NCBI GenBank assembly: GCA_030524745.1
Contig: JAUNGC010000002.1
Span: forward strand, 83,207 to 147,206
DNA from: Eubacteriales bacterium
GTDB taxonomy: Bacteria; Bacillota; Clostridia; Lachnospirales; Lachnospiraceae
DNA: 64,000 bases
Direction of reading: 5' to 3'
The notes below the pieces were generated by a model. That model saw nothing but the letters and a program-made list of their open reading frames with translations, had not been told where the DNA came from and did no database searches. Both the position numbers and the translations under genes were made by a program. Shown piece by piece: positions 24,176 through 55,552 of the stretch (positions are counted from its first letter, which is position 1; every line of letters begins with the position of its first letter).

Positions 24176-24183
24176 ACTTTTTT
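24176..24183. repeat. Target-site duplication, left copy
   Basis: ACTTTTTT next to the left IS end; repeated exactly at 25947-25954. Confidence 0.7.
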
Positions 24184-24396
24184 GTAACAGTTCAGCTACC
24201 AATGTCATTAAGTTAAATGTAAAAACGTGAGGAGTTTGATTGAAAAAAATATAGGGTAAAGAAATTCTCATTGGCTGAAAGTAGAAATTATAAAAATGAG
24301 GGATTCTGATATGCCGGACATGGATTTTATTGCATGGCAAACAAGCAGATTTACATCTGCTTCCATTTGCATTATATTAAACAGAGACGGATCCGC

Positions 24397-25725
24397 CTAA
24401 GCCGCCCTGTACAGGAAATACCTGGGCCGCCGGAAATGGGCTGTCTGCAGTCGCGGGAAGCTTCGCTCATTACGGACCGGTATGAGTTTTCGGTTGAGCA
24501 GGGGCATCACGTCTGCGGGGTTTTTTTGTGAATTCAAGCGGAAAAAGATCCTGCAGATGTGGGCGGCTTCCGTAAAATTCACTTTATAGCTGTGCTTCGT
24601 ATCCTTTCTGGTTTCTACTGCTGTGTGGTTTACAACAGTTTCTGTCAGGTTGTAAGCGATCAGCTTCGCCCAGATCTCCTGTTTTATAAATTCAGGTTTA
24701 TAAGAATGGAAACTGCTCAGGGCGATAGTGTACTTGAGCTTGCGGAAAGATGTTTCAATTCCCCATCTGGAAAAATAAAGGCGTTTGATGTCCTCTATGG
24801 TAAATTCCTCTGCCGGAAGATTGGTCATTATGCATTCATAAGAGCCGTCATCTAATGGGAACCTCACAACCCGGACAGGGATCGTATAAGTATCCAGGGA
24901 ACCGTATGCCACAAAATCAAAGGTGGATGCGGCATCAACAAAGGTGACATAATCACCGGATGCTGTGATCTTTTTGGAATGGGAACGCTTAATGACAATG
25001 TCAAGGCACAGGTCAAAAGCCCCTTCTTTAGGAATAGGCAGGTGTCCGGCGGCTCCGCGGACCTTCACATCTTTGGAACGAAAGAGAAAGAACTGTTTTT
25101 TCTCCAGGACATGTGCCATGTTATTATAAGAACAATACCCACGGTCAGCCATGAAAACATCAAAAGTTCCCTACGGTGTTTCCAGACGGTCCACCATAGT
25201 GCAGAAAGCCTTGAATTCATCTTTGAAATGAACGGGCTGGATGACGGCATCCTTATAGGTATGCGTGTTAAGATCATAAAGAGCGTTGAGGTGGACACTG
25301 TAAAAGCCTTTTGCAGAATGGCCTTCAGAAACAAGATAGTCGTCAGAGGCCCATTTGGGGGAACTGAAGAAGGAGAAGGAAGAACCGTCAGCAGCAAAGA
25401 ACCTGTAATTGGAAGGTGTTTCGAGTTTTGAAAGGGAGTTGTTGAGTTGACGAAAGACTTCTTCCAGAGCCTGGGGCTTAAGCTTATCCCTCTGCTGGCT
25501 GAGGACCGACAGGGAAGGGGAATCTGCATGGAAGTCAAAGAAATCGTCTAATTCATTGCCAGTGCTGGAAGCCCCTTGTGAGACAAGGAAAGAGATAAGC
25601 ATCTCAGGGGGAAGCTTTCTGCGTCTGGAAAAATCCTTATCAGGAGCGGTCAGATAAGGGGCAAGGTGGGATGTGACATAGAAGCAGGCATTCCGGAACA
25701 TGGATTTGATCTGATTAAAAAACAT
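24397..25725 (-). pseudogene. IS4-family DDE transposase with in-frame TAG
   Basis: One frame of about 442 codons, interrupted by TAG at codon 185 (25171-25173); the same frame then continues GTFDVFMADRGYCSYNNM. The DDE residues are split: the first Asp (AADGSSF, residue 113) precedes the stop, while the second (ADRGY) and the Glu of the IS4 YREK signature (YFSRWGIETSFRKLK) follow it. The first product (184 residues) lacks two catalytic residues. A single base change could restore a sense codon. Restart at ATG 25152 could make only the C-terminal part. GGAGG before 25725 sets the original start. Confidence 0.9.
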
Positions 25726-25774
25726 GGCATAAACCTCCTTGGATTAGAATGAAAGTACTGGTTCTAATGCCAAG

Positions 25775-25820
25775 GGCCGCTCTCGCTACCGCATAAAAAC
25801 AATTAGCAGCGAGAGCGGCC
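25775..25820. promoter_or_regulatory. Hairpin at the IS right end
   Basis: GGCCGCTCTCGCT (25775-25787) pairs perfectly with AGCGAGAGCGGCC (25808-25820). It sits between the terminal repeat and the transposase start. In related elements such hairpins stop read-through from outside from expressing transposase. TTAGAA (25744-25749) with TTCTAA (25762-25767) may form a second stem nearer the ribosome site. Confidence 0.6.
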
Positions 25821-25946
25821 GCACATTTTAGGGTTTATGTCAACCTTTTTTTAAAAAAGTTAAAAAATTTGGTTAGACCCCCATATTGGAATCTAACCAT
25901 GCAAATATCGTTGTTAACTTAATAACATTGCTGCCTGAACTGTTAC

Positions 25947-25954
25947 ACTTTTTT
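25947..25954. repeat. Target-site duplication, right copy
   Basis: ACTTTTTT, identical to 24176-24183. It begins one base from the stop codon (25956-25958) of the Rpn gene, so the IS landed just behind that gene. Confidence 0.7.
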
Positions 25955-37141: not shown

Positions 37142-37827
37142 TACAGGCTGTCTCCTTTGGTTATTTCCAGGCTGTAGCCGACGCCCCGGCTCGTTTTGAT
37201 GGATACCCGGGTTCCCAGGGCGTGCAGCTTCTGGCGGAGAAAGGAAATATAGACTTCCACATTATTATAGTCCGTGTCGGTATCCAGTCCCCATATTTTT
37301 GTCAGCAGCAGTTCTTTGGGGAGAACCTGGCGGGGATTGCGCAGAAAAAGTTCCATCAGTTGATATTCTTTTTGCCCGAGACGGATCGCATTTTCGCCGC
37401 AGCAAAGTTCCATGGTGCTTTTTTGCAGGGACAGATCGTCACAGGACAGCGCGTTCTCCCTGTATTGTTGGCCCCGTCTGGACAGAGCCCGGACCCGCGC
37501 CAGAAGTTCTGCGGTGGAGAAGGGCTTGGGGAGGTAGTCGTCGCTTCCCGCGTCCAGTCCGGCGACAATGTCGTCCACTTCCGCTTTTGCGGTCAAAAGG
37601 ATGACCGGCGTAAAGATCTTTTCCTGCCGGATCTGCCGCAGAATGGAAAGCCCGTCCATGCCGGGCAGCATGATGTCCAGCAGGATCAGGTCGTAGATTT
37701 GGGTGCGGATGTATTCCAGCGCTTCCGCGCCGTTTGCGACCGCATCGGCCAGATAGCCGTTTTGTTTTAATATTTCAGTCAGCGCTTCTGCAAGCGCAGT
37801 TTCATCTTCCACAATCAAAAGGCGCAT
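37141..37827 (-). CDS. OmpR-family response regulator
   Basis: A 228-residue regulator: receiver domain with phospho-acceptor Asp51 (YDLILLDIMLPGMDG), acidic pair EDE at 7-9 and Lys of LLTAKAEVDD; then a winged-helix DNA-binding domain (ELCCGENAIRLGQKEYQLMELFLRNPRQVLPKELLL). It precedes the kinase gene on the minus strand. GGGACCC lies upstream of the ATG. A long hairpin element separates it from the divergent efflux operon. Confidence 0.95.
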   Translation of the reverse strand: MRLLIVEDETALAEALTEILKQNGYLADAVANGAEALEYIRTQIYDLILLDIMLPGMDGLSILRQIRQEKIFTPVILLTAKAEVDDIVAGLDAGSDDYLPKPFSTAELLARVRALSRRGQQYRENALSCDDLSLQKSTMELCCGENAIRLGQKEYQLMELFLRNPRQVLPKELLLTKIWGLDTDTDYNNVEVYISFLRQKLHALGTRVSIKTSRGVGYSLEITKGDSL

Positions 37828-37859
37828 GTTGGGTCCCCTTTCTTTTCTTCTCTTATATC

Positions 37860-37888
37860 AGTATAACATAATACGCCCGGATTCTTAA
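37860..37888 (-). promoter_or_regulatory. Promoter of the two-component system
   Basis: On the minus strand TTAAGA (37888-37883), 17 bp, TATACT (37865-37860). It ends 9 bp short of the hairpin element. Confidence 0.5.
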
Positions 37889-37896
37889 ATGAAGAT

Positions 37897-38331
37897 TGAA
37901 AATTCGCGGTCCGCCGGTCGGCTGGCCGCGGCCGTCTGTGGGACCTTCTTTGGCATGCCGTCCCGTCCCGGCCTTCTCCGGCCCGCTTTGGCAGGGCTCC
38001 CCGGCCGGCCCGCGCAGGCATTTTTGCCATTCCGATATCCAAAACGGGAAATTCCGTCCAAAGCTCCGTCCCGTTCAAAAATGCCGCCCGACACACAAAC
38101 TCACCGCGAATCAGGGATTCGCGGCTCAGACAATGCGTGTCGGGCGACAGGAACGTTCCGGAACTTTGGGGAATTTCTCCGTTTTGGATATAAGTCATGG
38201 CAGAAAATGCCTGCGCGGGCCGGCCGGAGATCCCTGACAAAGCGGGCCGGAGAAGGCCGGAACGGGACTGCGTACCGAAAACGCCCAAAGACGGTCTCAG
38301 CCAGCCGGCCGGGGTCGTGAATTTTCTGTGA
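37897..38331 (+). repeat. Long hairpin element, copy 1 (435 bp)
   Basis: An imperfect palindrome with its centre at 38114. The arms are about 215 bp each and pair along nearly their whole length. The apex is a perfect 9 bp stem, CCGCGAATC (38104-38112) with GATTCGCGG (38116-38124), and the strongest stem contains CCGGCCGGCCCGCGCAGGC. The paired arms are interrupted at set places. GCCATTCCGATATCC on the left faces the strand that reads GCCATGACTTATATCC on the right arm's complement. Nearer the apex, ACAAACTC faces CATTGTCTGAG. Copy 2 at 45785 keeps the same unpaired strands. It occupies most of the gap between divergent operons. Apparent reading frames on both strands come from the palindrome. 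Confidence 0.85.
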
Positions 38332-38350
38332 AAAGAAGAATTTTCAAGGT

Positions 38351-38374
38351 TGGTTTAAGAAATGGTTCGTAAAA
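38351..38374 (+). promoter_or_regulatory. Direct repeat upstream of the efflux operon
   Basis: TGGTTTAAGAAA (38351-38362) followed directly by TGGTTCGTAAAA (38363-38374). Tandem half-sites about one helical turn apart suit an OmpR-type regulator such as the one encoded at 37141-37827. A leader hairpin CGGACG (38411-38416) with CGTCCG (38423-38428) follows. No convincing -35/-10 pair was found in 38375-38450. Confidence 0.4.
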
Positions 38375-38466
38375 TGTCAGAGTCAGTACAGAGAAACATG
38401 ACACCCGATTCGGACGTGTTGCCGTCCGGATGGTGAGAACTTGAAAGAGCGGACAGGAGGATTGGG

Positions 38467-40434
38467 ATGAAGGGAAAAAAGGCATGGATCATCGCAGGAA
38501 TTGCAGTTGTGATATGCGCGGCGGGAGGATTGGGATTCTTGCTGTTGAGGCAGAAAGACAATGCGCCGGATGAGCCTGCTTTACCGGAAGGAATGACGGT
38601 ATCGGAGAACGTCGTGTCTGCGGCCGGACTGACGAGCGTGGGCATGATGGAAGAGGTCTGTGAACTGGGCTTTTTAGAGAATGGTCTTTATGTGGAAGAA
38701 ACTTATCTGAATATGGGAGATGAGGTGGAAGCCCATACGCCGGTCTTTAAAGTTTCGGAGGAAAGTCTGGAAAACGCGCGCAGGGAGTTGGAAAAAAGCG
38801 TACAGGAAACGGCGCTGAACCGGCGGCAGGGGGAAATTACTTATCAGACCGGTCTGGTGGAAGCGCAGAAAGAAAAGGATCTGGCGGCGGTGGAAGCGCA
38901 ATATGCGCAGGCTGTTTACGATAGTGCGGTAAAAACCGCGCAGGAAAAGGTGGATGAGAGCCAGGAGGCGGTGGACAGCGCGCAGGAAAAGGTGGATGAA
39001 TACACGGCGTCCATAGAATCGGATTATTATTATACCTATTATGAAGTGGAAGAACTGGAAGCGACGTGGAAGGACAACGCCGCATTTCTGATGGAACTGT
39101 ACAATAACTGGAATGTGGCCGCGTTGGAAGATATTTACGGCGGATCGGGCGGTAAAAACGGGATCGGATATGTGACAAATCAGGTCACGGGGACTGCATC
39201 CGGCAGCGCGTCAGGCGTTTCTTCGGGCGGCAGCGCAGCAGATATTTCGGGGCAGGCGGCAAGTGTGGCAGGCGGCCAGGAAGTTTCGGACGGCGTTTTT
39301 TTTGCCGTGGAGCAGGCGGTTGGAAGTACGGAGGAAAATGCTGACAAAGATACGGGAAATGCGGTCGGCGCGGCGGAAGGCGGAACCGGAGATACGGAAA
39401 CGGGTGTCGGCGTCGAAGAAGGCGGAACCGGAGATACAAAAGAGGATGTCAGCGCGGCGGATGACGGAAGCGGCGACGGGAAAAATGAGGGTGCAGGCGA
39501 AAAGGAACTGCCGGATATGGCGGGCATGCAACCGGGTGGCGGTGGCGGCAGCATTTCCGGCAATGACATAGATAGGATGGGGCAAAGTAGCGTTAATATC
39601 AGCGACGATGAGATCCGGTACAATATCTATCTGGCGATGGTGGAAGAGACGGAAGAAAGCGAAGACGCATATGAAGCCGCGCTGGAAAAATACGAGGAGG
39701 CAAAAGAAAAGGCGGCTGCCGGGATCGCGGAGGCAAAAAGCGAACTGGCGGTATTGCAGGCGAAGCTGAAGGAACAGCAGAGCGCCTATGAAGAAGCCGT
39801 GATTTCTGCAAAGCTGACCTATGATCTGGCCGTTTCGGATAACGAGACGGCGGAAATGGTCTATGAAACGACTGTAAAGCAATTGGAAGAGGACTATGAT
39901 GCGCTGGTGGAGGAAGAGGAAACCGCGGCACAAAATCTGGAACTGTTTGAAGAAACCGTGGGGGACGGCATTTTTTATACCGGTTCCGGCGGCACGGTGA
40001 TGATGACGGCTGTGCGGGCGAATTCCTGGATTACGGAAGATACGATGGTGATGGCCTACAGCAATCCTGAGACGGTGACCGTTGCGGCCAGTGTGGATCA
40101 GGCGGATATCGCTTCCATAGAGATCGGCGGGCAGGCCTGTATTGTGATCAGCGGGTACGGAACTTATACGGGAAAAGTGACCTCCCTGAACCCCGTCTCG
40201 GCCTCAGGAGGATCTTCCGGCGTTACTTATACGGTAAATGTGCTTTTGGAAGGCGACGTTTCGGAACTGGAAGCCAATCTGACCGCCTATGTTTATTTCG
40301 GTTTGACGGAGGAAGAAAAGGAAATGATGAGCGGCTCGTCAGGGAAGGGCGGACAGATGGAGATGGACGGCGGGCCCATGGACGGTGACGGCGGCCCTGA
40401 TATGCCGGGCGGCAGGCAGGGAGGCATGGAATGA
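38467..40434 (+). CDS. HlyD/MacA-like adaptor with long Gly/Ser/Glu insert
   Basis: A 655-residue membrane-anchored adaptor of the HlyD/RND periplasmic-adaptor type. Signal-anchor helix (about 5-27), split lipoyl-like domain (EETYLNMGDEVEAHTPVFKV), coiled-coil hairpin (about 98-185 and 390-490), and beta-barrel with membrane-proximal domain (about 510-630). Between the coiled-coil halves lies a 150-residue low-complexity stretch (about 225-378) rich in Gly, Ser, Glu and Asp. The C-terminus is Gly/Met/Asp-rich. AGGAGG precedes the ATG. First gene of the operon; overlaps the next by 4 bp. Confidence 0.82.
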   Translation: MKGKKAWIIAGIAVVICAAGGLGFLLLRQKDNAPDEPALPEGMTVSENVVSAAGLTSVGMMEEVCELGFLENGLYVEETYLNMGDEVEAHTPVFKVSEESLENARRELEKSVQETALNRRQGEITYQTGLVEAQKEKDLAAVEAQYAQAVYDSAVKTAQEKVDESQEAVDSAQEKVDEYTASIESDYYYTYYEVEELEATWKDNAAFLMELYNNWNVAALEDIYGGSGGKNGIGYVTNQVTGTASGSASGVSSGGSAADISGQAASVAGGQEVSDGVFFAVEQAVGSTEENADKDTGNAVGAAEGGTGDTETGVGVEEGGTGDTKEDVSAADDGSGDGKNEGAGEKELPDMAGMQPGGGGGSISGNDIDRMGQSSVNISDDEIRYNIYLAMVEETEESEDAYEAALEKYEEAKEKAAAGIAEAKSELAVLQAKLKEQQSAYEEAVISAKLTYDLAVSDNETAEMVYETTVKQLEEDYDALVEEEETAAQNLELFEETVGDGIFYTGSGGTVMMTAVRANSWITEDTMVMAYSNPETVTVAASVDQADIASIEIGGQACIVISGYGTYTGKVTSLNPVSASGGSSGVTYTVNVLLEGDVSELEANLTAYVYFGLTEEEKEMMSGSSGKGGQMEMDGGPMDGDGGPDMPGGRQGGME

Positions 40435-42035
40435 ATAGGATGAAATTGTCAAAAAAGCTGAAAATCCGGCTGGCCGCGGCAGGCGTCGCATTGCTGCTTC
40501 TGATCGCGGCGGCTGTCTATACGGTTTTTATTCTGCCGGGAAGAAATGAGCAGACTTATGTTTATAAAGAGGAGACAGTCAGCCGGGGCGACGTGATACA
40601 GGGCGTGATGGAAAGCGGCAGCATTGCACTGTCGGAGACTTCGGTCGCTTATGACGTGGATGTGAACGTGGACGACGATGAGGATGAGGACGACGATGAT
40701 GATGACGATGAAGACGAAGCGGCGATTCATTATCTGGAAATCGGAGAAGTCTATGTGGTGAGCGGACAGCGCATCAGCGAGGGAGATCCGTTATTCTCCA
40801 TTACAGAAAAAAGCAGAAGTGCGGTGATAAAGAAACTGCAGTCCAATCTGACGGAAAAAGAAATCGCCCTGACGAGCGCCAAGGCGCAGTATAATTCGCA
40901 GGCGCTGGAAGCGAAGAGTACCTATGACAACAGCATGCTTTCCTATAACAGCGCGTCGGCCATGCTGGAAGCGGCCACGACGCAGTTGGAAGAGGAAATC
41001 AACGGCTTATCCGCGCAGACGGATGTGCTGGAACTGGAAATCAATCAATGTCTGGAAAAGCTGACGGATGAGGATTTCCTGGATTCTCTGAATGAGGCAA
41101 AACAGGCATACGAAAAGGCAAAGGGCGTATATGAAGAGACGGATGTTCATTCTGTCGCTGCCTATACGGCAAATTATCAGAGTTATGTGACCGCAGAACA
41201 GCAATATGAAAGCCTGCTTTCGCAGAAGGAAGAATGGGAAGAAACAATCGCGCAGAATCAGGAAACCATTCTTGCCAATCAGGAGGAAATGGAAAAGGCG
41301 CAGTCCATTCTGGAGGCAAAAGAGACGGATGCAAGGAACACCTATGAACTGAGCGTAGGGGCCGGAGAACTGGCGGAGGATATTTATTCTTATACGGTGC
41401 AGGCCCTGCAGGATACGGTGGACGCCGCGCAGGAGGAATGCGCGCAGGCGCAGGAAACGCTGGAAGCGTTGGAAGCTTTTGTGGGAGAGGACGGAATTGT
41501 CTATGCGGACGGAGAAGGGCTTGTGACCGCCGTCTATTATGAAGCGGGGGATGAACTGGCCGCGACAGGTCCTCTGTTGTCTTATGTAAAAGAGAGCGAT
41601 TATACTGTTTCCATCGACGTGTCGGAAGAAGATATTGCCGGTATTTCCATAGGCGACAGCGTGCAGATTGCCTTTGACGCCTATCCGGAAGAGGCGTATA
41701 CGGGAACGGTCATTTCCATCACGACGACCAAAACCTCCGATTATGCCAAAACCGTGAGTTATCCGGTGGAAATTCAGATAGAAGGGGATACCCAAAAACT
41801 CTATGGCGGCATGACGGCGGGCATTACATTTGTGACGGATTCGGTTACGGATGTGCTGTATGTGTCCAGAAAGGCGATCGTAAAGCAGGACGGAAAAACC
41901 TGGGTATATACAGGCGACGGAGAGGAAAAGGAACTGACGGAAGTGGTCACCGGATTTGAAAACAGCACGGTAGTGGAAATTAAGGAAGGACTGTCGGAAG
42001 GCGACGTCATTTATATCAGAAGCAACGCAGGGTAA
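40431..42035 (+). CDS. HlyD/MacA-like adaptor with poly-Asp segment
   Basis: A 534-residue second adaptor. Signal-anchor helix (about 13-35), lipoyl-like start (VSRGDVIQGVMESGSIAL), then an extremely acidic stretch at residues 80-96 (17 residues, all Asp or Glu except the last Ala). A long coiled coil (about 125-340) follows, then the second lipoyl half (DGEGLVTAVYYEAGDELAATG) and the barrel domain (SIDVSEEDIAGISIGDSVQIAF). The acidic stretch may bind calcium or other cations outside the cell. Coupled by ATGA to the first adaptor. Confidence 0.85.
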   Translation: MNRMKLSKKLKIRLAAAGVALLLLIAAAVYTVFILPGRNEQTYVYKEETVSRGDVIQGVMESGSIALSETSVAYDVDVNVDDDEDEDDDDDDDEDEAAIHYLEIGEVYVVSGQRISEGDPLFSITEKSRSAVIKKLQSNLTEKEIALTSAKAQYNSQALEAKSTYDNSMLSYNSASAMLEAATTQLEEEINGLSAQTDVLELEINQCLEKLTDEDFLDSLNEAKQAYEKAKGVYEETDVHSVAAYTANYQSYVTAEQQYESLLSQKEEWEETIAQNQETILANQEEMEKAQSILEAKETDARNTYELSVGAGELAEDIYSYTVQALQDTVDAAQEECAQAQETLEALEAFVGEDGIVYADGEGLVTAVYYEAGDELAATGPLLSYVKESDYTVSIDVSEEDIAGISIGDSVQIAFDAYPEEAYTGTVISITTTKTSDYAKTVSYPVEIQIEGDTQKLYGGMTAGITFVTDSVTDVLYVSRKAIVKQDGKTWVYTGDGEEKELTEVVTGFENSTVVEIKEGLSEGDVIYIRSNAG

Positions 42036-42056
42036 GCGCGTGCGGCGGGAGGATGA

Positions 42057-43586
42057 ATGAATATGGAAAAAAAGAGCCGAAAGGATCCGGGGAAAAAGGT
42101 TCCGAACGGTATTTTGAAGAAGCGCAGATTCTGGATTTTATCGGCGGCTGTGGCGCTCGTTTTGGCGTTGACAGCCGGTACGGTCTTTTTCCTTCTGACC
42201 GGAAAAAATCAGGAAAAGCAGCAGGAAGCGGCTATCGCCCGGAACGACCGGCAATCGGTTTCGGATACGGTGACGGAGGAAGGAAGCGTATCGGTGGGAA
42301 CGGTCAGTCAGACTTTTGAACTGGATCTTTCCGAATATACGGGACAAAGCGACTTTTCCTGGAACAGCATTGGCAGCATGGCGGCGGGACCTGGCATGAT
42401 GGAGGGCGGCGGACAGAGCGGCATACAGAGTCTGGTGGTTACGACATCTTCTGGCAACCGGCAGTTGACGGTGGAAGAGGTTTATGTGAAAGTGGGAGAA
42501 GAGGTAAAAGCGGGCGATCCGATCCTGAAGGTGACCGCCGATACCCTTTCTGAGATCCGGCAGGGATTTGCGGAGGACGTCACGGATGCAAAGGAAGTTT
42601 ATGACCAGATGGTGACGCAGCAGATGCAGACCCAAAAGGAAGCGTCTGTACAGCTTCAGGAAAATGAACTATATGGTTCTTATGCGGATACGGAATACAA
42701 TCTGGCTGTGGCCAAACTGGAAGAAGCGGTGGAAGAATTGCAGGAATCCCTGCAAAATGCGCAGGAAATGATGGAAAAAGATCAGGAAGACCTTGCCGGA
42801 TTGCAGGAGACGCTTGAGGAACAGCAGGCCGTTTTGGAGAACGCAGTGTATACGGTGGAGAACGAAGACCGCAGCAGTAATGCCTATGGCTGGCTGCTTG
42901 CGGTGAATGCAAAGGTGGATGAAGAAACCATTATAGAAAGTCTGGAAACACAGATCGAAAGCCTTGAAGAGAGCATCGCATTGCAGGAAGAAGAAATCGA
43001 ATCTTTGAGCATGCAGCTTACGAATGCGCAGAAGGAACTGGAAAGCGGGAAAATCGAGGCGGAAAGCGCAAGACAGATCCGGATTATCAACGGAAACAGC
43101 GCGCAGGAAATTTACGACGTTACGACGCAGCTTGCGGACTTTGAAGCACAAAATGCGAAGGAAGATTATGACGAGGCGGCTGCGAAGCTGGAGGAACTGG
43201 ATACTTATATTGTGGATCAGGTGATTTGTGCGGCGCAGGACGGCGTGATCACCGCCGTCAGCGTGAGCGCAGGGGACGCGCTGCAGGAAGGTACGGAATT
43301 GATCGCCTTGAACAGTTATGACGACGTTACCATTACGCTGACGCTGGATGAAGACGAGATGGATATGGCGGGGCTGGGCAGCAAGGCAGAGGTGGTATTC
43401 TCCGCTTTCCCGGATGAAGTGTTTACGGGAGAAGTGACCGAAATCGGCGACGCGCAGATCGACAGCAATACGAATATGACGACCTATGAGGTCGTAGTCA
43501 GCATTCTGGAAAACGGTTCCAGACTCTATGAGGGAATGACCGCGGAGGTGACCTTTACCAGACAACAGAAGGGAGAACCCGAATGA
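42057..43586 (+). CDS. HlyD/MacA-like adaptor, third
   Basis: A 509-residue third adaptor. Positively charged N-terminus, signal-anchor helix (about 26-48), a short Gly/Met-rich segment (MAAGPGMMEGGGQSG, about 102-116), lipoyl half (VEEVYVKVGEEVKAGDPILKV), long coiled coil (about 175-375) and the C-terminal lipoyl/barrel part (AQDGVITAVSVSAGDALQEG, then MAGLGSKAEVVFSAFPDEVFTGEV). ATG 42057 follows GGGAGG by 4 bases; ATG 42063 is a second option. Overlaps the permease gene by 4 bp. Confidence 0.85.
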   Translation: MNMEKKSRKDPGKKVPNGILKKRRFWILSAAVALVLALTAGTVFFLLTGKNQEKQQEAAIARNDRQSVSDTVTEEGSVSVGTVSQTFELDLSEYTGQSDFSWNSIGSMAAGPGMMEGGGQSGIQSLVVTTSSGNRQLTVEEVYVKVGEEVKAGDPILKVTADTLSEIRQGFAEDVTDAKEVYDQMVTQQMQTQKEASVQLQENELYGSYADTEYNLAVAKLEEAVEELQESLQNAQEMMEKDQEDLAGLQETLEEQQAVLENAVYTVENEDRSSNAYGWLLAVNAKVDEETIIESLETQIESLEESIALQEEEIESLSMQLTNAQKELESGKIEAESARQIRIINGNSAQEIYDVTTQLADFEAQNAKEDYDEAAAKLEELDTYIVDQVICAAQDGVITAVSVSAGDALQEGTELIALNSYDDVTITLTLDEDEMDMAGLGSKAEVVFSAFPDEVFTGEVTEIGDAQIDSNTNMTTYEVVVSILENGSRLYEGMTAEVTFTRQQKGEPE

Positions 43587-44971
43587 AACTGACGGAAATT
43601 TTAAAACTGGTCGGGCTAAACCTTTCGCAGAACAAATCCAAAGTAATCCTCACCTCAACGGGGATTCTGGTCGGCTCTGCCACCATTATGCTGGTTATCG
43701 CAATCGGAACGGGCGGAAAACTGGAGGTCGCGGAACAGTTTAAAAACCTGAATGCCGGCGCCATTGATATTTCCTATGAATATCAGGAAACGGGCCGCTC
43801 GTTTGGCGGCGGGCGTGGCGGCGGCATGGAGCAGGGCGGCGCTATGGATGGCGGCAGCATGGGCGGCAACGCTATAGGAGGCGGTATGTCCAGAGGTAAC
43901 ATGCCCGGTGGCGGCGGTATGCCGGATATGGGCGGCGGAGGAATGCCTGACGGACAGGATATGACCGGAGGGTTCGGCGCCGCGCAGAATACGGAAAAAA
44001 TCATCCTGTCCACGGAAGAGGCGGACGCTCTGCTGGAAGGCGTGGAAGGACTCAGCGATGCGACGATCAGCTACACCACGAAATCGGATGTGGAAGGCGG
44101 CGATCTGGAAGAAGCCGTTTCCTATACGATTGCGGGGGTGAAGGAAAACTATGCGCAGATGAGCAATCTCACGCTGGCGATCGGCGATTTCATCACGGAA
44201 GAGAACGATACCTATAAGGAAAAAACGTGCGTGCTGGGCTACAGCGTGGCAAAAGAAATTTTCGGAAGCGCGCTGGACGCCTATGACGAATCCGTTTATA
44301 TTGATAACCGTCCCTATGTGGTCAACGGCGTTTTTGCGGAGGTTGGCACCGTGGCGTCCGGCATCAGCCCGGATGAGGCGATTTTCATTCCCTATGAGAC
44401 CGGAATCAAATATCTGACGGGAAAAAATAACGTCAGTCCTACCATCACGCTGATCGCAGAAAACGTAAATGAAGTGGAGACGGCCAAAGAACAGGCGCAG
44501 ACGGTGCTGGCGCAGATTTATCCGAACGCGTCGTTTACGGTTACGGATGCCGGCAGCAAGATGGAAGCGGCCTCCAGGTCCAACGAAACGCTGACCATGC
44601 TGCTGGCGGCCATGGCGGTGATCGTCTTTATTGTAGGCGGTATCGGCATCATGAACGTGCTGTTTGTATCGGTCAGGGAACGGACCAATGAGATCGGAAT
44701 TTTAAAGGCGATCGGCTGCAGCCAGAAGGATATTCTGCTGGAATTTTTGCTGGAAGCCGCCTGTATCAGCCTGATCGGCGCAATTCTGGGCGTTCTTTTG
44801 TCCCTTGCAGTCACGCCGGTCATTGAGCAGCTTTCCGTGCGGGTGGAACTTTCCGTCTGGGGCGGTATGCTGTCCCTGGTGTTCGGCTGCGTGACGGGAA
44901 CTGTGTTCGGTTTTTATCCCGCCTGGAAAGCGTCGAAGCTTGTGCCGGTAGCGGCCTTGAATCATGAATAG
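43583..44971 (+). CDS. MacB-like ABC permease with Gly/Met-rich insert
   Basis: A 462-residue MacB/FtsX-type permease. First membrane helix (about 21-43), external MacB domain, then three C-terminal helices of the FtsX domain (about 335-360, 385-410, 430-450) with the motif VSVRERTNEIGILKAIGCSQKDI. Early in the external domain is a 58-residue insert (about 74-131) that is over half Gly and has about ten Met, with GGM and GMPD repeats. Typical MacB proteins lack it. It pairs with the separate ATPase encoded 54 bp downstream. Confidence 0.9.
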   Translation: MKLTEILKLVGLNLSQNKSKVILTSTGILVGSATIMLVIAIGTGGKLEVAEQFKNLNAGAIDISYEYQETGRSFGGGRGGGMEQGGAMDGGSMGGNAIGGGMSRGNMPGGGGMPDMGGGGMPDGQDMTGGFGAAQNTEKIILSTEEADALLEGVEGLSDATISYTTKSDVEGGDLEEAVSYTIAGVKENYAQMSNLTLAIGDFITEENDTYKEKTCVLGYSVAKEIFGSALDAYDESVYIDNRPYVVNGVFAEVGTVASGISPDEAIFIPYETGIKYLTGKNNVSPTITLIAENVNEVETAKEQAQTVLAQIYPNASFTVTDAGSKMEAASRSNETLTMLLAAMAVIVFIVGGIGIMNVLFVSVRERTNEIGILKAIGCSQKDILLEFLLEAACISLIGAILGVLLSLAVTPVIEQLSVRVELSVWGGMLSLVFGCVTGTVFGFYPAWKASKLVPVAALNHE

Positions 44972-45025
44972 GACGAACAGGAAAAAAGTTTGCGGCATCA
45001 AAAAGATGGCCGGACAGGAGCGATT

Positions 45026-45715
45026 GTGGGACAGAAATTAATTGAAATGAAGGGCATCAACAAGGGATATAAACTGGGAGAAGAAATGGTGCCGGTTTTA
45101 AAGGATGTGGAATTCGAGGTGGAAAAAGGAGAATTTGTGGCCATTTTAGGACCTTCCGGTTCCGGAAAATCCACTTTGATGAATATTCTGGGGTGCATGG
45201 ACACGGCGGACAGCGGAACCTATTTTCTGAACGGCGAAGCGATCCATGAAATGCCGGAAAACCGCCTCAATGAAATCCGCAACAGGGAGATCGGATTTAT
45301 CTTTCAGAATTATCAGTTGATTCCCACTTATAACATCATGCAGAACATCATCATGCCCCTTCTGGTGCGGGGAATGACAAGCGCGGAAGCGGAGGAAAAG
45401 TGCAGAAAGACCATAGAACTGCTGGGGATATCGCACCGCTTAAAGCATAAACCCAATGAACTGTCGGGAGGACAAAAGCAGCGGGTTTCCATCGCCAGGG
45501 CGCTGGTAGGCGAACCTGCGATTCTGCTTGCGGACGAACCCACGGGGGCGCTGGATTCTTCCAGCGGAAAGGACGTGCTCAAACTCTTTGAGCAGCTTCA
45601 CGGAATGGGAAATACAATCGTCATGATTACCCATGACTTAAACGTGGCGAAGCACGCGCAGCGCATTGTGCACATCATAGACGGACAGCTTTATACCAAT
45701 ACCCTGCCGGATTGA
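45026..45715 (+). CDS. MacB/LolD-type ABC ATPase
   Basis: A 229-residue ATPase: Walker [10 protein letters not shown] (about 42-50), Q-loop FIFQNYQLIPTYN, signature LSGGQKQRVSIARAL, Walker B ILLADEPTGALD. This is the lipoprotein/macrolide exporter group that works with FtsX-type permeases. GTG at 45026 is chosen because AGGAG lies 5 bases upstream and the protein then begins GQKLIEMKGINKGYK; an upstream TTG has no ribosome site. Last gene of the operon, 70 bp before hairpin element copy 2. Confidence 0.92.
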   Translation: MGQKLIEMKGINKGYKLGEEMVPVLKDVEFEVEKGEFVAILGPSGSGKSTLMNILGCMDTADSGTYFLNGEAIHEMPENRLNEIRNREIGFIFQNYQLIPTYNIMQNIIMPLLVRGMTSAEAEEKCRKTIELLGISHRLKHKPNELSGGQKQRVSIARALVGEPAILLADEPTGALDSSSGKDVLKLFEQLHGMGNTIVMITHDLNVAKHAQRIVHIIDGQLYTNTLPD

Positions 45716-45784
45716 AGAATACATTTTTCCGGCTTTCTATACATTATATTGAGGGTATCTGACCTTTCGGATTTAACGTCTCAA

Positions 45785-46134
45785 CCTGCCGCCTGCCGGT
45801 GTACTGCGTGTCTTTTGGTCCCGTGCGGGGGCTGCCGTCCTGCCGGGCGTTTGGGGGCGCACAGGTATTTTGCCATGACTTATATTCAAACCGGTGAAAT
45901 TCCCCAAAGCATCATTCCGTTCCTGTGATCCGATGCGTATTGTCTGAGCGGCAAAGCGGGGCTTTGACGCGAGTTTACGCATCGGGGCACAGTCCGGAAC
46001 GGAATGACGCTTTGGTTGGAATTTCCCGGTTGGGATATCGGAATGGCAAAATACCTGTGCGCCCCCAAACGCCCGGCAGGACGGCAGCCCCCGCACGGGA
46101 CCGGAAGGCACGCGGCGAGCCGGCAGGCGGCAGG
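45785..46134 (-). repeat. Long hairpin element, copy 2 (350 bp, inverted)
   Basis: An imperfect palindrome centred at 45959. It includes a perfect 60 bp inverted repeat: 45817-45876 with 46043-46102. The apex pairs GCAAAGC (45951-45957) with GCTTTGA (45961-45967). It has the same internal-loop strands as copy 1, but GCCATGACTTATATTC is on the left here and the complement of GCCATTCCGATATCC on the right, so this copy lies in the opposite orientation. The outer stems (CCTGCCGCCTGCCGG) are unrelated to copy 1. The right arm is followed by eight T (46142-46149), so it may also end transcription of the efflux operon. Confidence 0.85.
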
Positions 46135-53638: not shown

Positions 53639-53686
53639 CATTTTTCCTTCAAATTTTCTGCCGTCGCCCACAGGAACTGTAACGAT

Positions 53687-55552
53687 TCAGCGGCAGGCCG
53701 AACCGTTACGGGCGGCTAACAGGACGACCAGGCAGGACCCGACATTATGTACCAGAGCGCCTGTCGTCGGAGTGAGGATGCCCAGCATGGAACAGGCGAC
53801 CGCAGCAAAGTTGATGCACATGGAGAGCGTAATGCTCAGGCGGATGGTAGCCACAGTGGCATTGGATAACCGTTTCAGGTATGGAATTTTGGAAATATCG
53901 TCGCTCATAAGGGCGATATCCGCCGCGTCCACGGCGATATCGCTTCCCATGCTCCCCATCGCCACGCCGACGTCGGCAGTTTTTAAGGCGGGAGCGTCGT
54001 TGACTCCGTCGCCGATCATACATACCCGGCTTCCCTGCGCGCGCATTTCGGAAATGCACCGGACTTTTTCTTCCGGCAGTAAGCCGGCGTTTACCCTGGT
54101 AATGCCGCACTGTCCGGCAAAATACGAAGCGGTCCTCTGGTTATCTCCTGTCAGCAGAACGGTGGAGACGCCCATCGCGGACAGGCTGTTTGGCACGCTC
54201 TTTGCCTGGGGCCGCAGTACGTCTGATAAGGCGAGCAGGCCCAGACAGGAACTGCCGTCTGCAACGATCACGGAAGCCTTTCCCTGGGCATGCTTTTTTT
54301 CCAGTTCTTCCGTGACCTCTGCCGGAATGGCGATGTTGTTTTGCCGGATGAACGTTTCATTGCCGCAATAGAATTTCTTTCCGGATATTTCAGCGCAAAT
54401 TCCTCTTCCGCTTTGCATCCGGAAGGCGGAAGCTTCCGGCGGTTCAATGCCCTGTTCCCTTGCATATGCCGTGATTGCTCTTCCCAGCGGATGTTCGCTT
54501 TTGGACTCGGCCGATGCCGATAAAACGAGCAGATCGTGGGCGTCCATATTTGGATGAAAAGAAAGGATATCGCTGACCACGGGCTTTCCGTAAGTCAGGG
54601 TTCCCGTTTTATCGAAAGCGATTGTGTCGACTTTTCCCATCTTTTCAAGCGCCTCGCCGGATTTAATAATCACGCCCCGCTTTGTCGCCTGCCCGATCGC
54701 GGCCATAACCGCAGTTGGCGTGGCCAGCACCAGCGCGCAGGGACAAAAAACAACCAGAACGGTTACCGCCCGCACGATATCCTGCGTCGCCAGACCCGTA
54801 ATGACGGCAAGGAGCAGAGCGGCGGGGACGAGAAAACTCGCCCATTTGTCCGCAATTCTCTGTATGGGAGCCTGTTTGCTTTCCGCGTCCTGTACCATCC
54901 GGATCAGTTTCTGAAGGGAACTGTCTTCCCCTGTTTTGACCGCTTTCATATCGAACGCGCCGAAGCGGTTGATCGTTCCGCAGAATACTTCGTCTCCGGC
55001 GGACTTATCAACCGGAAGAGATTCTCCCGTCATGACGGACTGGTCAACGGAGGTTTCCCCGCTGATGATGACGCCGTCCGCCGGAATCGCTTCGCCGGGC
55101 AGAACCCGCAGGATATCGCCCGGCCGGATTTGTTTGGCTTCAATCATTTCCTCTTTGCCGGAAGAGATTCTTCTTCCTCTGGAAGGCGTAAGGCAGAGCA
55201 GGTTTTTTAACCCTTTTTTAGCGCGGTTGGCGGTCATGTCCTCCAGGATTGCGCCGATTTCCATGATGAAAGCGACCTCTCCGGCAGCAAACAGATCGCC
55301 GATGATAATCGCCGCAACCATGGCGATACTGATCAGTAAAGCGGAGGAAATTTTGCTGATTCCCTTAAGATGTATGATTCTCCATACGGAAAGATAGATT
55401 AAAGGAACGCCGCAGATAACGACGCTGATCCATGCGGGATCAAAGGGCAGCGCAATATCCGTTCCGGATACTGCGAAACTCAGAATGAGAAAGATACCGC
55501 CTGCAGCCGTCATGGGCAGACCTGCCAGAAAATCATTGATTCGTTTTATCAT
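53687..55552 (-). CDS. Heavy-metal P1B-type ATPase with CPC motif
   Basis: A 621-residue P1B ATPase without an N-terminal metal-binding domain. The metal-site CPC is at 270-272 (VVFCPCALVLATPTAV), phosphorylation Asp314 (FDKTGTLT), TGES at 175-178, SEHPLG for the nucleotide pocket and GDGVNDAPAL for the hinge. This class exports Zn, Cd, Cu or similar soft metals; the helices do not settle which. The start at 55552 follows GAGG by 9 bases. Divergent from a TetR regulator; a palindrome sits on its promoter. Confidence 0.92.
   Translation of the reverse strand: MIKRINDFLAGLPMTAAGGIFLILSFAVSGTDIALPFDPAWISVVICGVPLIYLSVWRIIHLKGISKISSALLISIAMVAAIIIGDLFAAGEVAFIMEIGAILEDMTANRAKKGLKNLLCLTPSRGRRISSGKEEMIEAKQIRPGDILRVLPGEAIPADGVIISGETSVDQSVMTGESLPVDKSAGDEVFCGTINRFGAFDMKAVKTGEDSSLQKLIRMVQDAESKQAPIQRIADKWASFLVPAALLLAVITGLATQDIVRAVTVLVVFCPCALVLATPTAVMAAIGQATKRGVIIKSGEALEKMGKVDTIAFDKTGTLTYGKPVVSDILSFHPNMDAHDLLVLSASAESKSEHPLGRAITAYAREQGIEPPEASAFRMQSGRGICAEISGKKFYCGNETFIRQNNIAIPAEVTEELEKKHAQGKASVIVADGSSCLGLLALSDVLRPQAKSVPNSLSAMGVSTVLLTGDNQRTASYFAGQCGITRVNAGLLPEEKVRCISEMRAQGSRVCMIGDGVNDAPALKTADVGVAMGSMGSDIAVDAADIALMSDDISKIPYLKRLSNATVATIRLSITLSMCINFAAVACSMLGILTPTTGALVHNVGSCLVVLLAARNGSACR

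Follow-up and report, generated by a model that had tools for sequence, protein, structure and literature searches.

A 64,000-nucleotide stretch of a Lachnospiraceae draft genome (Eubacteriales bacterium, GenBank assembly GCA_030524745.1, contig JAUNGC010000002.1, positions 83,207 to 147,206; here called the window) carries two giant imperfect hairpins of opposite polarity, copy 1 and copy 2, one at each side of an efflux operon. The question raised by this locus is what kind of element can change its stems, keep them paired and at the same time hold its unpaired loops constant. An earlier note on this DNA saw in this pattern the signature of selection on a structure, whether RNA or extruded DNA. 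The remainder of the genome (G000, a 3.57-Mb draft in 63 contigs) and its relatives bear this out only in part: both window hairpins probably belong, as long-resident copies, to a family of mobile elements found throughout the Clostridia. Its members are non-autonomous, palindromic over nearly their whole length, ~200–530 bp long and similar to miniature inverted-repeat transposable elements (MITEs). Our preferred reading, held with fair rather than strong confidence, is that these palindromic elements are moved in trans by unrelated transposases and carry a functional apical loop that would be bound by some partner.

Two giant hairpins and their family

Both palindromes are real and carry the loop strands first quoted for them. 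Complementarity of the inverted arms reaches 89% across 76 nt in copy 1 and 91% across 92 nt in copy 2, the folding z-scores are -21 for copy 1 and -32 for copy 2 (0/100 shuffles fold as well, in each case), and the two cores match at 73% over 195 nt in opposite orientation. From the outside in, the family layout consists of outer arms, a lower polarised loop (GCCATTCCGATATCC facing GGATATAAGTCATGGC), inner stems, an apical polarised loop (AAACTCGC facing GCTCARACA) and a variable apical stem. The outer arms vary from copy to copy, extending ~20–180 nt beyond the core by strict self-alignment. Copy 2 is the sole match to the exact family apical pattern in the window, with 0 in 100 shuffles.

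As anticipated in the earlier note, a covariance model (trained on an alignment of 27 copies) brought up many further members and, together with a DNA search, gave 30 full-length copies in G000 alone, which disposes of the concern that only the two window copies might exist. Throughout the 27 aligned copies the polarised loop strands are near-invariant, and in 49 of the 75 predicted pairs both sides have changed at least once without loss of pairing. The apical loop, in relaxed form, is present in 30/30 of these resident copies and the lower loop in 26/30. The bracketing of the efflux operon, true as described, is unremarkable: copies 1 and 2 lie 7.8 kb apart, and gaps shorter than 9.5 kb number four in G000 vs 2.2 expected (P = 0.17).

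The covariance model also found copies in 5/12 sister genomes. Among the 16 sister-species loci fetched, from ~34 places listed (own count), 15 have the apical loop and none has the lower loop, with ≤2 substitutions per strand allowed; it was the lower loop on which the earlier note laid stress. The exact apical pattern appears in 51/397 Lachnospiraceae genomes (~320 matches by our count; three for a reversed control pattern) and in 45/391 genomes from the class Clostridia (two control matches), 38 of those 45 being outside Lachnospiraceae, again by our count. Since this strict pattern gives just 13 matches among the 30 G000 copies, the family and class counts are lower bounds. The highest copy number, 72, was seen in genome G548. 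Apical loci from other genomes were fetched for part of the genomes with matches and taken one per genome, after removal of one locus close to a contig end and two whose genomes had entered other counts; a palindrome centre stronger than all 214 control positions was present at 31 of the resulting 37.

An exact 27-letter stem pattern searched against the GTDB 220 contigs, a collection that may leave out the window's own genome, returned only Lachnospiraceae bacterium UBA3332, in three stretches. Spread by phages or plasmids was considered and dropped, one copy used as query having no match in either, and the 119 stretches matched in viral contigs are close to our own rough estimate of chance. 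The family appears to be undescribed: at gathering threshold Rfam gives 0 matches in the window and 15 related loci, in agreement with the earlier note, which knew of no named element of this kind, and the papers listed for its motif strings in one open-licence full-text library were unrelated by title.

Some observations concern annotation and assembly. Open reading frames traverse the hairpins at 37815-38288 (minus strand), 37889-38320 (plus) and 45773-46111 (minus), and would probably be annotated as hypothetical proteins. Genome G614 has three tandem copies with 237-bp spacing (C1:418482-418975). Several draft contigs end at or near hairpins (loci L032-L034 and L036, also in genomes G063 and G624), so draft genomes will undercount the copies; contig ends and spurious reading frames are the practical consequence of these elements.

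Insertion and element ends

Evidence for mobility comes from the gpr-spoIIP locus. In G000 a hairpin begins 10 nt past the gpr stop, whereas in 12/12 other genomes of the genus the spacer is ~10–190 nt and, by reading, no hairpin precedes the conserved spoIIP start; the G000 copy is an insertion. The locus of copy 2 has a single strong match, in the sister genome G008, where a different gene lies upstream of the ABC operon and there is no hairpin. The hairpins are too short to hold a transposase gene, and those in G000 are multiple and mostly intergenic. Context was analysed for 26 of the 30 G000 copies, i.e., those picked up by a fuzzy loop pattern: the left arm starts 0–40 nt past a stop codon in ten and 6–19 nt inside a gene in three, and in three the core overlaps a predicted frame by >60 nt, two of these frames being weak. 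A similar picture is given by 30 copies fetched from genomes G318 and G396, with 0 midpoints in a called gene and arms intruding ≤26 nt into gene ends.

Element ends with target duplications were found in relatives. In G396, where 55 of 61 copies entered the end analysis, the elements end in GTWACAGTTCA and are flanked by 8-bp duplications, perfect in 26/55 copies (0.13 expected from swapped flanks) and matching at 7/8 positions in another 18/55 (3.9 expected). The ends in G749 are GGGTGCAT, with duplications of 8–9 bp; five of nine anchored copies have a perfect one (8 or 9 bp), three are one off and one has none, while the swapped control gave no perfect duplication and 0.4 one off. Most of the seven anchored copies in G548 show TA immediately outside TAGGGTTTGTAA at the left, mirrored at the right, and no longer duplication; read by eye, these ends seem to adjoin a TA-type target. 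Automatic end-finding gave no usable ends in AT-rich G548, G614 and most of G749, and anchored ends were used for G749 and G548 (1/10 and 3/10 fetched copies, respectively, could not be anchored). Three end types thus occur in three hosts.

The window itself contains an insertion sequence (Table 1) whose ends (GTAACAGTTCA) and 8-bp duplication are those of the G396 hairpins. G396 contains 116 occurrences of GTWACAGTTCA and G000 contains 19, against one and two for the controls. From these shared ends, IS4-type enzymes would be the likely helper of the G396 elements. An IS66 helper, an idea prompted by the GTAA ends and 8-bp duplications of IS66 elements, gained no support from seven IS66 loci. 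A small imperfect palindrome at ~53672-53712, with GTAACGGTTCG-like ends, resembles a short GTAACAGTTC palindrome beside the G000 hairpin L090 and may be a remnant, reduced to its ends, of the insertion-sequence type listed in Table 1.

Table 1. Positions of the hairpins, their loops and a neighbouring insertion sequence in the window.
Feature	Position	Strand	Remarks
Copy 1 hairpin	37897..38331	+	Between response-regulator gene (minus strand) and efflux operon (plus strand), i.e., divergent genes
Copy 1 strict arms	37914-38312		AAACTC side first on plus strand
Lower loop strand 1, copy 1	38026..38040	+	GCCATTCCGATATCC
Apical polarised loop, copy 1	38097..38132	+	AAACTC ... GCTCAGACA, enclosing variable apical stem
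Lower loop strand 2, copy 1	38186..38201	+	GGATATAAGTCATGGC
Copy 2 hairpin	45785..46134	-	Between efflux operon end and start region of amino-acid-type ABC transporter operon
Lower loop, copy 2	45872..45887	-	Counterpart of GGATATAAGTCATGGC
Apical polarised loop, copy 2	45941..45976	-	Exact match to family pattern
Lower loop, copy 2	46033..46047	-	Counterpart of GCCATTCCGATATCC
Insertion sequence	24184..25946	-	Ends GTAACAGTTCAG; IS4-type transposase (NCBIfam NF033592) split over two reading frames
Target duplication of insertion sequence	24176-24183 and 25947-25954		8 bp, ACTTTTTT

Proposed mode of spread, and polarity

The life cycle that we propose would begin with DDE transposases from unrelated insertion sequences, acting in trans and cutting at the element ends. 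Surviving copies would be those placed where they are least harmful, often directly behind stop codons. After insertion the arms may be partly re-copied from each other and may recombine, inverting the interior, so that the stems would drift and yet stay paired. The ends would be exchanged among transposon types, leaving the apical loop as the conserved functional part, presumably kept as a recognition site needed for spread or tolerance and most likely presented on a folded single strand, which we regard as the weakest step. The fixed-length duplications argue for a DDE mechanism and count against single-strand transposition with an orientation locked to replication, a possibility that fits G548, fails for the positions in G318, and was rejected.

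Several observations weigh against this proposal. The G000 copies show no excess of target duplications (1/26 perfect vs 0.3 expected) and their inverted arms have no common end sequence, so that the route taken by the window copies is suggested by their relatives. Other places were also poor in duplications: in G318 a perfect one was found in 1/15 copies, away from the ends (0.1 expected), and 43 loci from other genomes gave two perfect ones vs 0.33 expected. No intact autonomous partner was found, the window insertion sequence being broken; no pair of ends 1–3 kb apart was seen by eye among the matches listed for G396, and seven PF03050 (IS66) loci, spanning just 1.5 kb either side of the domain, lack an exact GTWACAGTTCA. 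Six of the 37 apical pattern loci do not rise above all palindrome controls and may be chance matches or decayed.

To these must be added the polarity of the copies, which neutral mobile DNA need not show. Polarity follows the genes in 16/18 tandem gene pairs of G000 (the remaining copies of the 26 lie in six divergent pairs, one convergent pair and one contig end) and follows the replichore in 58/72 copies of G548. Along contig C1 of this last genome the orientations are 27:8 vs 6:31 across a border set by us at 1.4 Mb (Fisher P = 2.9e-7), flipping near the replication terminus, where gene strand and GC skew flip too. Tandem pairs are without bias in G318 (6:5, from 15/26 copies) and G396 (6:6, from 15/61 copies), and the G318 genome, a single contig, shows mixed polarity along its length.

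Maintenance of paired stems

The strongest competitor of a mobile palindrome is a structured RNA, in which the hairpin would be transcribed, act as a discrete RNA or as an element carried by messenger RNA, and owe its pairing to RNA selection. The conserved polarised loops fit such an RNA, as does the polarity bias of G000 and G548 (absent from G318 and G396), and the lack of an Rfam match means that it could be new. The arms allow a more direct assessment. Over 55 G396 copies, the two arms of one copy share 96.8% identity (minimum 91.5%), arms of different copies 62%. Comparing G396 copies with one another, pairs which are not independent, we counted 74 both-arm changes vs 83 one-sided at 5–10% divergence; below 10%, both-arm changes are more often transversions (54:37), one-sided ones mostly transitions (72:23). 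Four orthologous pairs gave 39 one-sided vs 10 two-sided changes, where ~0.6 two-sided would be expected under independent change (own arithmetic), an excess in line with RNA selection; seven of the 10 come from one pair. A fifth pair, L112/L110 (21 one-sided, 9 two-sided and 9 other changes), was kept outside this sum as it shares one flank only.

Copying and recombination at the DNA level can also produce paired changes. An orthologous element shared by G002 and G003 (L109 and L110) has its interior inverted in place between the two sister species: the locus aligns in a single orientation at ~90% identity across 2.7 kb, while the inverted core is identical at 190/193 positions, which indicates that the arms recombine and speaks against a structured RNA. 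In this inverted pair the hairpin differs less than its flanks. In two other pairs hairpin and flanks diverge at about equal speed (4.2% vs 2.3%, and 4.3% vs 2.7% with one flank).

Mismatches provide a test of strand. If RNA pairing were the constraint, G.U should clearly exceed A.C on the transcribed strand, and an excess of A.C on the AAACTC strand would suggest that it is the opposite strand that folds. Counting copies with ≥40 paired sites, A.C:G.U on the AAACTC strand is 146:80 in 25 G000 copies (P = 1.3e-5), 51:31 in 15 sister-species copies (P = 0.035), 29:23 in G318, 118:116 in G396 whole stems and 38:41 in other genera, i.e., 382:291 over all five groups (P = 0.0005). Outer arms gave 77:47 in G000 (strict) and 48:30 in G396, and the RNAalifold pairs of G000 60:27 cells (hand count). 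The bias for the strand opposite AAACTC is real but modest and is greatest in this genus; as evidence for the folding of one strand it is the best available. As support for RNA selection it is weakened by its size (~1.6–2.2 to 1), by other mismatches being as common (172 in G000), and by the even counts of G396 whole stems and other genera.

Neighbouring genes provide little support for a regulatory RNA. Among 20 flanking proteins scanned, 13 have a family and these are diverse, including ABC ATPases, a MarR-type regulator, sortase, YicC, SpoIIP, MurE, the carbamoyl-phosphate synthase (CPSase) small subunit, an RqcH/FbpA-like protein, GPR and others; 7/20 have no family at 1e-10. As the nameable families are unrelated, a regulon or riboswitch was rejected. 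We conclude that the paired stems are better accounted for by copying and recombination between arms at the DNA level, together with a degree of selection, than by selection on RNA alone, and regard a structured RNA as unlikely. Of the earlier interpretation, a repeated structured element whose polarised loops are conserved is supported; reading stem changes that preserve pairing as a sign of selection on structure is not supported in that form. Relatives of the element are mobile insertions. Given the in-place inversion and the mixed wobble counts, changing paired stems by themselves do not prove RNA selection, and this can be put more generally: covariation in a palindrome is by itself no proof of RNA function.

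Other origins for the loop

A second possibility is an ordinary MITE family, whose loops would be functionless remnants of internal sequence from some parent insertion sequence. In favour are the inverted ends and target duplications and the placement of copies, which occupy intergenic regions and adjoin stop codons. Mere leftovers, however, should hardly share one apical loop across three end types, in hosts that belong to three different bacterial families; the insertion sequence in the window, for all its G396-type ends, lacks the exact apical motif. We judge functionless loops quite improbable. Least credible is a boundary element of transcription or replication (a bidirectional terminator, an insulator or a strand-oriented chromosomal motif). 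Many copies do follow a stop codon and precede the start of a neighbouring gene, and G548 polarity flips near the terminus together with GC skew and gene strand. Against such an element, 6/26 resident copies separate divergent genes, a position that requires no terminator, no consistent T-run was noticed at hairpin ends by eye (no scan was made), polarity in G318 is mixed along one contig, and gene strand and replication are inseparable in G548.

Within the reading of palindromic elements moved by unrelated transposases, the question raised is why one polarised loop is kept while stems and transposon ends are not. One tentative answer, which we advance as a rather doubtful extension, is that the apical hairpin core may be a modular, strand-polar selfish passenger, acquired again and again by transposon ends of unrelated kinds, the reason being that its loop would be recognised by a conserved host factor, which would thereby aid its spread or silence its cost. 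If this were true, a single nucleic-acid device would be conserved across Clostridia.

Comparison with known systems

Multicopy intergenic hairpin repeats are well known in bacteria, e.g., Correia/NEMIS, BOX, RUP and REP/BIME, some of which are thought to be mobile. Their stems are shorter than those of the present family, and we know of no apical loop shared by them. IS4-family insertion sequences (NCBIfam NF033592) are tied to the G396 hairpins by the ends and 8-bp duplication of the window representative, and differ in that the hairpins have no transposase and the G000 copies lack those ends. The motif MRSC-65-2, presented in PMC11109978 as a mobile or repeat sequence candidate and described there by a UYCCGG repeat, is similar in being structured, found dozens of times in a genome, suspected of being selfish and possibly acting as DNA.

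The closest relatives in kind are bacterial MITEs, described in the review PMC10969869 as short, non-autonomous, multicopy and intergenic, with inverted ends and target duplications and with transcripts predicted as stable stem-loops; QMITE2 of Coxiella is an example there, with repeats of 7–9 bp according to the legend. The hairpins are likewise short, non-autonomous, multicopy and intergenic, with inverted ends and duplications in relatives: terminal inverted repeats occur in G396, G749 and G548, duplications of fixed length in G396 (8 bp) and G749 (8–9 bp) and not at the G000 copies, and transposase-free elements of variable presence are exemplified by gpr-spoIIP, hairpin-free in the 12 sister genomes. 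Unlike the MITEs of that review, the hairpin elements are palindromic throughout, have ends that differ by host, and share a polarised apical loop that is conserved between genera and even between bacterial families.

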